A DNA stretch of 64,000 bases from positions 1-64,000 of the forward strand of contig JAQUQX010000001.1 of assembly GCA_028715885.1 (NCBI GenBank). Direction: 5' to 3'. A program made the position numbers and the translations under genes. Shown one piece after another: positions 31,952 to 39,212 of the stretch (positions are counted from its first letter, which is position 1; each line of letters opens with the position of its first letter). Under the pieces are notes generated by a model that saw nothing but the letters and a program-made list of their open reading frames with translations, was not told the DNA's origin and did no database searches. The DNA comes from Candidatus Methanoperedens sp. (GTDB lineage Archaea; Halobacteriota; Methanosarcinia; Methanosarcinales; Methanoperedenaceae).

Positions 31952-32737
31952 CTATCCATGCGCTGCCCTTATCCCATCCTTCAACTCCTTCGCCAGCGCC
32001 TCAAGTTTTCCTGCCGCATCTTTTCCGTTTGCAATAATATCCACGAAAGCAGAGCCCACAATCACCCCGTCGGCGCCGGCACGTATGATATCGGCAGCCT
32101 GTTTTCCATTCGATATTCCGAATCCCACAGCCTTGGGCGTTGTTGTCTTCACCCGTTCAATCAACTCACGCGTCGAGCCTGCAATATCAGCCCGCGCCCC
32201 TGTAACGCCCAGGCGCGCCACAAGGTAAATGAAGCCTGTCCTCCGGACTAATATCCGTTCCATTCTTGATTCTGTCGTGGTTGGAGCCACAAGGAATATC
32301 AGGTCTATATCATATTTCTTACAGAAACCGGCAAGCTCCACGGATTCCTCCGCAGGCAAATCGGGTACTATTATGCCTGAAATCCCCGATGCAGCGCAGT
32401 CTTTCACGAATTTCGGAAGCCCTCTTTTGAATATGAGGTTGTAGTAGGTCATCACCACAAGGGGAATATGAACCTTGAGGGAACCTACAGTTTTGAAATA
32501 AGTATCGGGCGTCATGCCGGCGTTAAGCGCGCGCTCAATCCCCGCCTGTATGGTAGGTCCGTCAGCCACAGGGTCGGAGAAAGGCAATCCGAGTTCTATA
32601 ATATCCGCGCCGCCTCTTACAAGCGCGGTCACGTACTCTTTTGTAGCCTCAGGCGTGGGGTCTCCGGCGCAGATGTAGGCAATCAAAGCCCCCTCTTTTT
32701 TATTTTTTAATTCGTTGAATTTCTCACTTATTTTCAT
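31952..32737 (-). CDS. trpA: Tryptophan synthase alpha chain
   Basis: TrpA cleaves indole-3-glycerol phosphate and passes indole to TrpB. The 261-residue TIM barrel has the catalytic Glu in [16 protein letters not shown], the loop Asp in [30 protein letters not shown] and the phosphate site [12 protein letters not shown]. It is last in trpC-trpB-trpA and overlaps trpB by 14 bases. The ~150 bases downstream hold no gene before tRNA-Phe. Confidence 0.95.
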
Positions 32738-33920
32738 GTCTTACCCCCAGCACGGTTTCAAGGTCTTTGTCGCCCCTTCCTGAAATGTTTATTACCACAA
32801 CGTCGCCCAGTTCTCCCGATGCAGCCGCCTTCTTGACAAATGCCACGGCATGCGATGATTCAAGCGCCGGGATTATGCCTTCAAGCCTGCACAGGTCATG
32901 GAATGCCGCGAGCGCCTCAGTGTCCATTGAATTGCAGGGCTTGATTCTCCCAATATCCGCAAGATAAGCAAGTTCAGGACCTACGCCTGCATAATCAAGA
33001 CCCGCCGCTATCGAGCTTGATTCGAGTATCTGTCCATATTTATTTTGCAATACTTTCGTTCGGGCGCCGTGCAGCACGCCCTCCTCGCCTGCGCACAGCG
33101 TGGCTGAATGGAGCGCCTCTTTATCAGTGGTTTTCATGCCTGTGCCTCCCGCCTCAACAGCAAAAAGCTGCACATCGTCGCCTATGAACGGATGGAAAAT
33201 ACCCATGGCGTTGCTGCCCCCGCCAGTGCACGCCACTATGGAATCCGGGAACCGCCCTTCCTTATCCATTATCTGCGCGCGCACCTCTTTTCCTATGACG
33301 CTCTGGAAGTCGCGTACCATCACGGGATAAGGATGCGGTCCTACTACGGAGCCAATCATATAATGCGTCGTCTCCACATTGGCAACCCAGTCGCGCATGG
33401 CTTCGTTTATGGCATCTTTCAATGTCTGCGAGCCGCTTTTGACAGGTATTACCTTTGCACCCATCAGTTCCATCCTGTAAACGTTCATGCGCTGGCGCAC
33501 CGTATCCTTTGCGCCCATGTAAACTTCGGTTTTTATGCCGAAAGCCGCGCCTGCCATCGCGCAGGCTGTGCCGTGCTGACCCGCGCCCGTCTCCGCGATT
33601 ATCCTTTTTTTACCCATGTATCTGGTCAGCAGCGCCTGCCCGAGCGTATTATTCAATTTATGGGCGCCGCCGTGGACGAGGTCTTCGCGTTTTAAGTAAA
33701 TCTTGACGCCATATTCTTTGCTCAGTCGCTTTGCGTGGTATAAAGGAGAGGGACGCCCTGCGAAATCCCTGAGATAGTAATCCAGTTCCTCGTTAAAAAC
33801 GGGGTCATCTTTGTATTTTTCGTATTGCTCTGTTAACTCTTCAAGCGCCGGCATCAATACCTCAGGTACGAACTGCCCACCGTATTTGCCGAATTTTGTA
33901 GATTTAAGTTCCTGCTTCAT
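32724..33920 (-). CDS. trpB: Tryptophan synthase beta chain
   Basis: This PLP enzyme joins indole and serine. Motifs are [12 protein letters not shown], the PLP Lys in [40 protein letters not shown] and [10 protein letters not shown]. It is the classical TrpB1 form (398 residues). It starts two bases after the trpC stop region and overlaps trpA. The other trp genes (E, G, D, F) are not in the window. Confidence 0.96.
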
Positions 33921-33922
33921 AG

Positions 33923-34681
33923 CTATCCGCTCAATGCATGTACTAACTCGTAAGTCTTATCGTAAATATTTCCCTGCATGATAGATGTTCCCACAAGAAT
34001 GGCATCCGCTCCGGCGCCTATCATGCGGACAGCGTCATCGGGGCTTGATATTCCGCTTTCGCTGATGATTATCCTGCCGCTGATAAGCGGCGCCAGTTTT
34101 TCGGTAGTGGATATATCAACTTTCATGGTCGTGAGGTCGCGGTTGTTAATCCCTATGATACCGGCGCGTGTTGAAAGGGCATTTTCCAGTTCTTTTTTAT
34201 TATGCACTTCAACAAGTGGCTCCCTGCCGTATGAAATAGCCTCGTTCACAAAGTCATCCAGCTTATTACCGAGAATCCCTGCTATCAGCAATATTAAATC
34301 GCTCTCTGCTTCATGAATCTGGGCTTTGTCAATCACGAAGTCCTTTCGAAGCACAGGAATGCCAACAGCCTGCCTTACGCTGTTCAGGTTTTCGATGCTG
34401 CCTTTAAAAAATTGCGGCTCCGTGAGCACGGATATAGCCGCCGCGCCGCCTGATTCCATTTGTTTTGCGATTCCAGCCGCATCCTGCGGGGTTACGTTCC
34501 TGATAAATCGAGTAGGAGAGGATGGTTTGACTTCTGCTATTACAGGAATCAGGCTTTTTTGTTTTCTGGCTTTTATTATATTATTGAAATTCCGCGGCTC
34601 TATAATCCTTTTTTTATTATTCGTAATGCGCGGGATTCTTTTTTTTGTTGAATCGAGTATTTCATTGATAATGGGGTGCAT
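33923..34681 (-). CDS. trpC: Indole-3-glycerol phosphate synthase
   Basis: This TIM-barrel enzyme catalyses the step before TrpA. Motifs are [57 protein letters not shown] and [13 protein letters not shown] 34681 ([11 protein letters not shown]) is preferred, since the upstream frame to 34729 runs through the TGTACA operator boxes. The basic N-terminal region is helical. It heads the trpCBA operon. Confidence 0.95.
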
Positions 34682-34702: not shown

Positions 34703-34748
34703 TGTACATTTTAGTACATTGATGTACAATAATGTTCATTATATATAA
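34703..34748 (-). promoter_or_regulatory. trpCBA promoter with four TGTACA-like operator boxes
   Basis: On the minus strand a TATA box TTATATAT (34741-34748) is followed by four hexamers at exact 10-base steps: TGTTCA site 34733-34738, TGTACA 34723-34728, AGTACA 34713-34718 and TGTACA 34703-34708 (plus-strand reading). They cover the expected transcription start. TGTACA is the TRP box recognised by the archaeal repressor TrpY, so Trp-dependent repression is likely. No trpY gene is in the window. Confidence 0.85.
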
Positions 34749-37608: not shown

Positions 37609-38553
37609 TTGAGTTTAGCAGGAATTTTATACGGAAGCTATGAAGCTTTATTAGCCAATGAAATAATGGATCAGCCTGTCCCATCGCACGTTGCAATTAT
37701 AATGGACGGCAACAGGCGCTTTGCAAAGAAGCATGGGCTAGCGCAGTATTACGGTCATTTCAGGGGCGCGGACACTACAGAGAGGGTTCTTGACTGGAGT
37801 TTTGACCTTGGTATCAAACAGCTCACAGTGTATGCTTTTTCAACCGAGAATTTCGAGCGGTCGGATGCCGAGAAAAACAGGCTTTTTGATCTTATCGGGC
37901 TTAAATTTGATAAAATTTGCAGCGACGAACGCACTCATAAACGCCGCATGAGAGTTCGGATAATCGGGAATATCGACATGCTCCCCTCTTCCCTGAAATC
38001 ATCCGCAAAACACGCGGAAGAAATCACAAAAAATTACGACGGCGTATATCTTAACGTGGCGCTTGCCTATGGTGGAAGGCAGGAGCTTGTGGACGCGGCA
38101 CGCAATATGGCTTTTAAAATCAAGCACGGCAAACTATCTATAAAAGACATTAATGAAGATGCCATCTCCAATAACCTGTATCCTGCAAACGGGTCAGTGC
38201 CGTATGTTGACCTTATCATCCGAACAGGAGGGGACGAACGAATATCCAATTTTCTGCCGTGGCAGGCAAACGGGAATGAATGCGCCGCTTATTTCTGCGC
38301 TCCTTTCTGGCCAGAGTTTCGCAAAATAGACTTCCTGCGGGCAGTACGCACATACCAGACGCGAGAGCACGAGAGGCAAAAAAATACGGTAATGAGAATC
38401 GTCAAGCTGTTGAGCTATTACGGGATGGTAGAGGTGGAAGATGTCATCCGCATATCCAGGAGATTCATTGTACTTCCCAAGGAAGAAGTTGTAAAGATAC
38501 TTCACGAACTTGCGCACCGCAATGTTGTGATGTATAATATGATAAAGTGGTAA
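37609..38553 (+). CDS. uppS: Cis-prenyltransferase catalytic subunit (UppS/DHDDS-like)
   Basis: This enzyme builds cis-polyprenyl diphosphate, precursor of the lipid carrier for glycosylation. The catalytic motif HVAIIMDGNRRFAKKHG (Asp33 from the TTG start) and the downstream TVYAFSTENFERS and RTGGDERISNFLPWQ are complete. Length is 314, longer than bacterial UppS, with an extended C terminus. The start TTG 37609 has GAGGG upstream; an ATG-based start would be later. A second, motif-poor homologue is encoded convergently five bases away. Archaeal and eukaryotic heteromeric enzymes have this kind of pair. Confidence 0.93.
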   Translation: MSLAGILYGSYEALLANEIMDQPVPSHVAIIMDGNRRFAKKHGLAQYYGHFRGADTTERVLDWSFDLGIKQLTVYAFSTENFERSDAEKNRLFDLIGLKFDKICSDERTHKRRMRVRIIGNIDMLPSSLKSSAKHAEEITKNYDGVYLNVALAYGGRQELVDAARNMAFKIKHGKLSIKDINEDAISNNLYPANGSVPYVDLIIRTGGDERISNFLPWQANGNECAAYFCAPFWPEFRKIDFLRAVRTYQTREHERQKNTVMRIVKLLSYYGMVEVEDVIRISRRFIVLPKEEVVKILHELAHRNVVMYNMIKW

Positions 38554-38558
38554 CTTTT

Positions 38559-39212
38559 TTATTTCCCGAATCTGCGCTGTCGTTTCTGGAAATCCCTTAT
38601 AACCCTCAGGAAATCAACCTTCCTGAAATCCAGCCAGTTAACATCCGTAAAATACAGCTCGGAATAAACGGACTGCCATATCAGGAAATCAGTCAATCTC
38701 TTGCCCCCGGCGCGTATTACAATGTCGGGTTCGGATTTGAACAATAAATGGGATTCGATTATATCTTCATTAATATCCTCAGGGCTCAGGCTTCCGCTTT
38801 CTACCTGCATCATTATTTCCCTGATGGCGCGGGTTAATTCATACTTCCCGCTGTATCCCAGTGAGATATCAACATTCATACCTTCTGCACCATGTTTTTT
38901 AATTTCTTTGTCCCCTCTTGTGATTATATTGATATTGGGAGTTATATCATAAATTACCGATGGGATTTCCGTGGATAATTTACCACATATTTTTTCACTC
39001 AATTCAACATCCACTTCGATTAAACTTATGTATATTGTGACTGTATTAACGCCGCTCTCTTTGCACCATGCGGCAAAAGATTTCAGTTTACTGTAATTAT
39101 TATCGGCGAGCACATCACTTTCCGCAAGGGCAAGTACGATATGCTGCGGTACGCCATGTTTCTTTATTGCCTTTTTGAGTTTCCATTCGTATAATGCCGA
39201 GATCAGTCCCAT
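38559..39212 (-). CDS. Cis-prenyltransferase accessory subunit (Nus1/NgBR-like)
   Basis: The 217-residue homologue of UppS keeps the C-terminal region (VIRAGGKRLTDFLIWQSVYSELYFTDVNWLDFRKVDFLRVIRDFQ) but has lost the DGNRR catalytic motif. The matching segment reads IVLALAESDVL, with no catalytic Asp-Gly-Asn. This is the signature of the non-catalytic partner in heteromeric cis-prenyltransferases, as characterised in Methanosarcina mazei and Archaeoglobus fulgidus. It is convergent with uppS, which is unusual for a complex. Function is inferred from sequence and position. Confidence 0.85.
   Translation of the reverse strand: MGLISALYEWKLKKAIKKHGVPQHIVLALAESDVLADNNYSKLKSFAAWCKESGVNTVTIYISLIEVDVELSEKICGKLSTEIPSVIYDITPNINIITRGDKEIKKHGAEGMNVDISLGYSGKYELTRAIREIMMQVESGSLSPEDINEDIIESHLLFKSEPDIVIRAGGKRLTDFLIWQSVYSELYFTDVNWLDFRKVDFLRVIRDFQKRQRRFGK

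Follow-up and report, generated by a model that had tools for sequence, protein, structure and literature searches.

The tryptophan biosynthesis genes trpC, trpB and trpA lie together on the minus strand of the analysed window, a stretch of 64,000 nucleotides from Candidatus Methanoperedens sp., and the locus raises the question of whether a row of TGTACA-like hexamers preceding trpC is an operator of tryptophan biosynthesis and, if so, which protein binds it. We consider it likely that a TrpY-family repressor responding to tryptophan uses this array as its operator and controls both trp operons of the genome, trpCBA and trpDFEG. At the sequence level, this reading is supported by the 10-bp period of the boxes, their fixed place behind the TATA box, their restriction to the two trp operons, their conservation, and the presence of a TrpY homologue. 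The trpC gene for indole-3-glycerol phosphate synthase (33923–34681) has its start ATG, a codon conserved in relatives, at 34681 and is followed by trpB (tryptophan synthase beta, 32724–33920; TIGR00263, E=1.6e-181) and trpA (tryptophan synthase alpha, 31952–32737; TIGR00262, E=1.6e-84). The window also carries, at 37609–39212, two cis-prenyltransferase (UppS-like) genes in tail-to-tail orientation; the second aligns with only positions 111–219 of the profile, its C-terminal half, and therefore may encode a partner without catalytic activity in a heteromeric enzyme.

The earlier note had described four hexamers at exact 10-base steps on one face of the helix, lying over the expected trpCBA transcription start with a TATA element at 34741, and our analysis confirmed this description. 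On the forward strand, TGTACA occupies positions 34703–34708, AGTACA 34713–34718, TGTACA 34723–34728, and TGTTCA 34733–34738; the start-to-start spacing is exactly 10 bp, with all four boxes on the same side, and ATATATAA is found at 34741–34748 (minus strand TTATATAT). Counted from the TATA box, the minus-strand array (34703–34738) comprises box 1 (TGAACA, 34733–34738), box 2 (TGTACA, 34723–34728), box 3 (TGTACT, 34713–34718), and box 4 (TGTACA, 34703–34708), agreeing with TGTACA at 22 of 24 positions. The TATA box TTATATATAA (34739–34748) abuts box 1, and the minus strand of the promoter reads TTATATATAA-TGAACA-TTAT-TGTACA-TCAA-TGTACT-AAAA-TGTACA, one uninterrupted 36-bp run of four boxes with the trpC ATG 21 bp past box 4. 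With the TATA box at about -27, transcription would start near 34718, and the array would extend from about -20 to +16, thus covering the predicted start. Single TGTACA words are not enriched in the window, with 9 observed versus 7.4 expected. The four-box score of the array is 22 out of 24, the next best at 10-bp spacing in the window is 17, and none of the other spacings from 7 to 21 gave a score above 17 across the window. When the window was shuffled 200 times with dinucleotides preserved, the top four-box score was 18, and the local 280 bp, shuffled 20,000 times, never reached 22.

A genome-wide search with a three-box pattern, allowing up to three mismatches, returned two sites in the 2.09 Mb genome: the trpC array and a second array (G000:C10:15977–16012) directly upstream of trpD in the trpD-trpF-trpE-trpG operon. 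The reversed-pattern control gave no matches in the same 2.09 Mb. A third, two-box match (C33:16780) lies within a coding sequence and was dropped as chance. The trpD array, TGTACT-CGTT-TATACA-TTAA-TGTACA-AAAT-TGTACA, likewise consists of four boxes at 10-bp steps, abuts its own TATA box, TTTATATACAA, and covers the predicted transcription start, as the trpC array does. Therefore, the element is present at both promoters of the whole tryptophan pathway. The consensus of the TRP box is TGTACA, and TGTACA-type boxes in a trp promoter, a mark of control by TrpY through TRP boxes, are found here.

The earlier note had proposed comparing the trp promoters of relatives, and this comparison showed the 10-base spacing to be conserved throughout the genus and also in related families. 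Both arrays were found in all 24 genus genomes, with scores (out of 24) of 16–22 for trpC and 18–22 for trpD, and every best-scoring array in these genomes retains the 10-bp period. Box 1 is TGAACA or a close variant in 24/24 genus genomes, box 2 is TGTACA in 26 of the 27 scored trpC arrays, box 3 is TGTACT in 23 of 27, and box 4 is TGTACA or CGTACA in 22 of 27. The placement of the TATA box relative to the array is constant at both operons in nearly all genus members. In the trpD promoters the mean column identity is 0.96 for boxes, 0.75 for linkers, and 0.51 upstream; in the trpC promoters boxes and linkers both reach about 0.97, and the upstream region 0.43. One trpC promoter, L029 (G001), has five units, with an extra 10-bp TAAACATAAT between TATA and box 1, which moves the TATA box by exactly one helical turn. 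Within the order, families f2 and f5 carry arrays on both operons, and the sister families f3 and f4 gave background scores of 10–15 out of 24 directly upstream of trpC and trpD.

At larger scale, the strict three-box pattern occurs in 23 of 150 genomes of the class and in 16 of 295 genomes of the phylum, the reversed control giving zero in both scans. Most targets across the scans are trpC, trpD, trpE, trpB2-like genes, and the gene of ADH synthase (2-amino-3,7-dideoxy-D-threo-hept-6-ulosonate synthase), the enzyme that opens the archaeal shikimate pathway. Among the class matches, 18 of 23 are at trp genes, two are unassigned, and three precede an ADH synthase gene (identified in L087). The latter three-box arrays, in L086, L087, and L088 (G031, G055, and G170), lie directly before the gene and suggest that in one genus the regulon reaches the shikimate pathway. 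Outside this class, other members of the phylum carry TGTACA-N4-TGTATA-N4-TGTACA arrays before trpE (L093, L094, L095, L097) and before trpB2-like genes (L096, whose gene matches TIGR01415, and L098). An array-like site in L091 (G179; 1501–1526) is located upstream of an L-lactate permease gene (PF02652) with no trp gene nearby, and may be either chance or a further regulon member. A perfect array in G340 (L099) was set aside, as it belongs to a tract of repeated CAGATGTACA with no trp gene. No array was found in the haloarchaea-like and Archaeoglobus-like families of the phylum sample.

The reading of the array as a TrpY operator had been made dependent on the existence of a TrpY homologue, and the genome encodes a single TrpY-family protein, matching NF053754 (NCBIfam) with E=7.8e-64 and 214.6 bits against a curated cut-off of 180, over profile positions 1–163 of 163. 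Its gene (G000:C2:136244–136732) lies outside the window and has a product of 167 aa. A winged helix-turn-helix plus an ACT-like domain is the predicted architecture: the Pfam matches are below the gathering score (HTH_Crp_2, 14 bits; ACT, 19.8 bits), and the alignment is consistent with both domains. A search of the PDB for sequence relatives of TrpY found none. With a TrpY-family protein present, the array conserved, and the same array at the second trp operon, the interpretation as a trp operator gained support. The trpY gene, on contig C2, is not divergent from a trp operon and is unlinked to trp genes; no array was found upstream of trpY itself, and none of the loci examined from this class has trpY next to trp genes. 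An unlinked trpY without its own array lowers the identity of the arrangement, rather than of the mechanism, with that in Methanothermobacter thermautotrophicus.

The presence of TrpY is by itself weak evidence that tracks the arrays only loosely, since the family is near-universal, with 193 of 197 in the phylum sample above the cut-off. The haloarchaea-like and Archaeoglobus-like families encode it although no arrays were found in them, family f3 retains TrpY but showed no array immediately before trpC or trpD, and the use of TrpY presence or absence as a tracer of arrays therefore failed. In TrpY of f3 (L182, L185, L235), Met or Ile replaces an otherwise conserved Arg (IRQ) of the ACT region; the correlation of this motif with arrays is partial, since the aligned f4 protein has IRQ intact though f4 is without arrays. 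Given the near-universality of the family, the assignment of the protein rests on the box sequence, the target genes, and the comparison with Methanobacteriales, and not on co-occurrence.

This bears on the possibility, which we regard as quite unlikely, that the array is a true trp operator bound by a helix-turn-helix regulator other than TrpY. Besides the occurrence of the family where arrays were not found, it is favoured by the situation in Thermococcus kodakarensis, where the TrpY homologue does not bind its own trp promoter and trp regulation is performed by Tar (TK0271), an activator unrelated to TrpY with sites upstream of BRE/TATA (PMC6737238). The function is thus not constant across the TrpY family. 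However, TrpY of M. thermautotrophicus is a repressor that binds to the TRP boxes of the trpY-trpE promoters (PMC6737238), and both the box sequence and the 10-bp step recur beside trpY in Methanobacteriales. In a sample of this order (that of one Methanobrevibacter MAG) with 30 trpY loci, trpY adjoins trpE in 18, and the intergenic region carries boxes at 10-bp steps, such as TGTATA-ATAA-TGTACA-TTGA-TGTGGT. The TrpY protein of our genome has about 41–45% identity to the Methanobacteriales homologues encoded divergently from trpE. Moreover, nearly every genome of the class encodes a single member of the family, a DRR motif in the predicted helix-turn-helix is common to almost all aligned homologues, including those of Methanobacteriales, and the targets of the arrays in relatives include trpE and trpB2.

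Taking TrpY as the binder, we infer that tryptophan is the signal, repression the outcome, and binding cooperative. When tryptophan is plentiful, several TrpY subunits would line up side by side on one helical face, occupying a stretch of the promoter that begins immediately behind the TATA box and ends at about +16; the bound protein would leave TATA/BRE and the contacts of TBP and TFB free and occlude RNA polymerase from the start. That the boxes instead serve activation is very improbable. Thermococcales do employ a trp activator, but its Thermococcus sites are upstream of BRE/TATA (PMC6737238), whereas at both operons the array follows TATA directly and spans the predicted start, where a bound protein would block polymerase. 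Action of the element as RNA, in the form of a leader, attenuator, or riboswitch, can be given hardly any credence: boxes 3 and 4 are probably within the 5' leader, but the other two precede the predicted start, the constant 10-bp phase relative to TATA fits binding to DNA, and no Rfam family reached the gathering score except a nearby tRNA-Gly. A chance pattern in AT-rich promoter DNA, compatible as it is with the lack of TGTACA enrichment, is already refuted by a score that shuffles never attained, by the sole other array of the genome sitting at the partner trp operon, and by the genus-wide retention of both.

The internal structure of the array offers hints as to how a TrpY repressor might assemble on it. 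In 20 of 27 trpC and 20 of 28 trpD arrays, these sequences being related, the outer positions of the linker that separates boxes 2 and 3 show dyad symmetry, while those of the first linker almost never do; this weakly suggests a core dimer on boxes 2 and 3 with flanking units. One could further hypothesise, although we consider it rather doubtful, that binding nucleates at the central 16-bp palindrome (boxes 2–3, TRTACA-TYRA-TGTACW), that subunits are added stepwise, one per helical turn, and that the length of the array sets the strength of repression. This idea comes from the contrast between the central and first linkers and from the gain of exactly one 10-bp unit in L029. A phased array would fit the behaviour of TrpY at trpB2, where repression takes more assembly than the mere binding of boxes and is sensitive to insertions.

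In our literature search, no archaeal tryptophan repressor other than TrpY of Methanothermobacter had a described operator, and the sole follow-up elsewhere, in Thermococcus, was negative, so that TrpY control of trp might have been peculiar to one lineage. The arrays point instead to an old mode of control with a wide distribution over two archaeal groups, and extend the TrpY–TRP box system to a new lineage. In Methanoperedens-like archaea such control is indicated for both halves of the split pathway, and in relatives it appears to extend to trpE, trpB2, and the first shikimate enzyme. With their strict 10-bp periodicity, these promoters offer a clean setting in which to study how repressors assemble cooperatively on archaeal DNA.

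Among known systems, the division of the pathway into trpCBA and trpDFEG operons is shared with Haloferax volcanii, where the trp genes are split in the same way; unlike in our genome, no array was found in the haloarchaea-like genomes of the phylum sample. Tar of T. kodakarensis is likewise an archaeal regulator of trp, acting also on other aromatic amino acid operons, but it is an activator with sites upstream of BRE/TATA, while the array described here is downstream of TATA. The arrangement departs from trpY-trpEGCFBAD of M. thermautotrophicus in having two separate trp operons and an unlinked trpY without its own array; four boxes are present versus the two or three recognisable in Methanobacteriales trpY-trpE regions, and the TrpY proteins of the two groups are about 36–45% identical. 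Nevertheless, as in M. thermautotrophicus, TGTACA-type boxes are found at trp promoters of a genome encoding a TrpY-family protein, their 10-bp steps are shared with the Methanobacteriales trpY-trpE regions, and the trpB2-like targets in relatives add to the likeness to the Methanothermobacter TrpY system.
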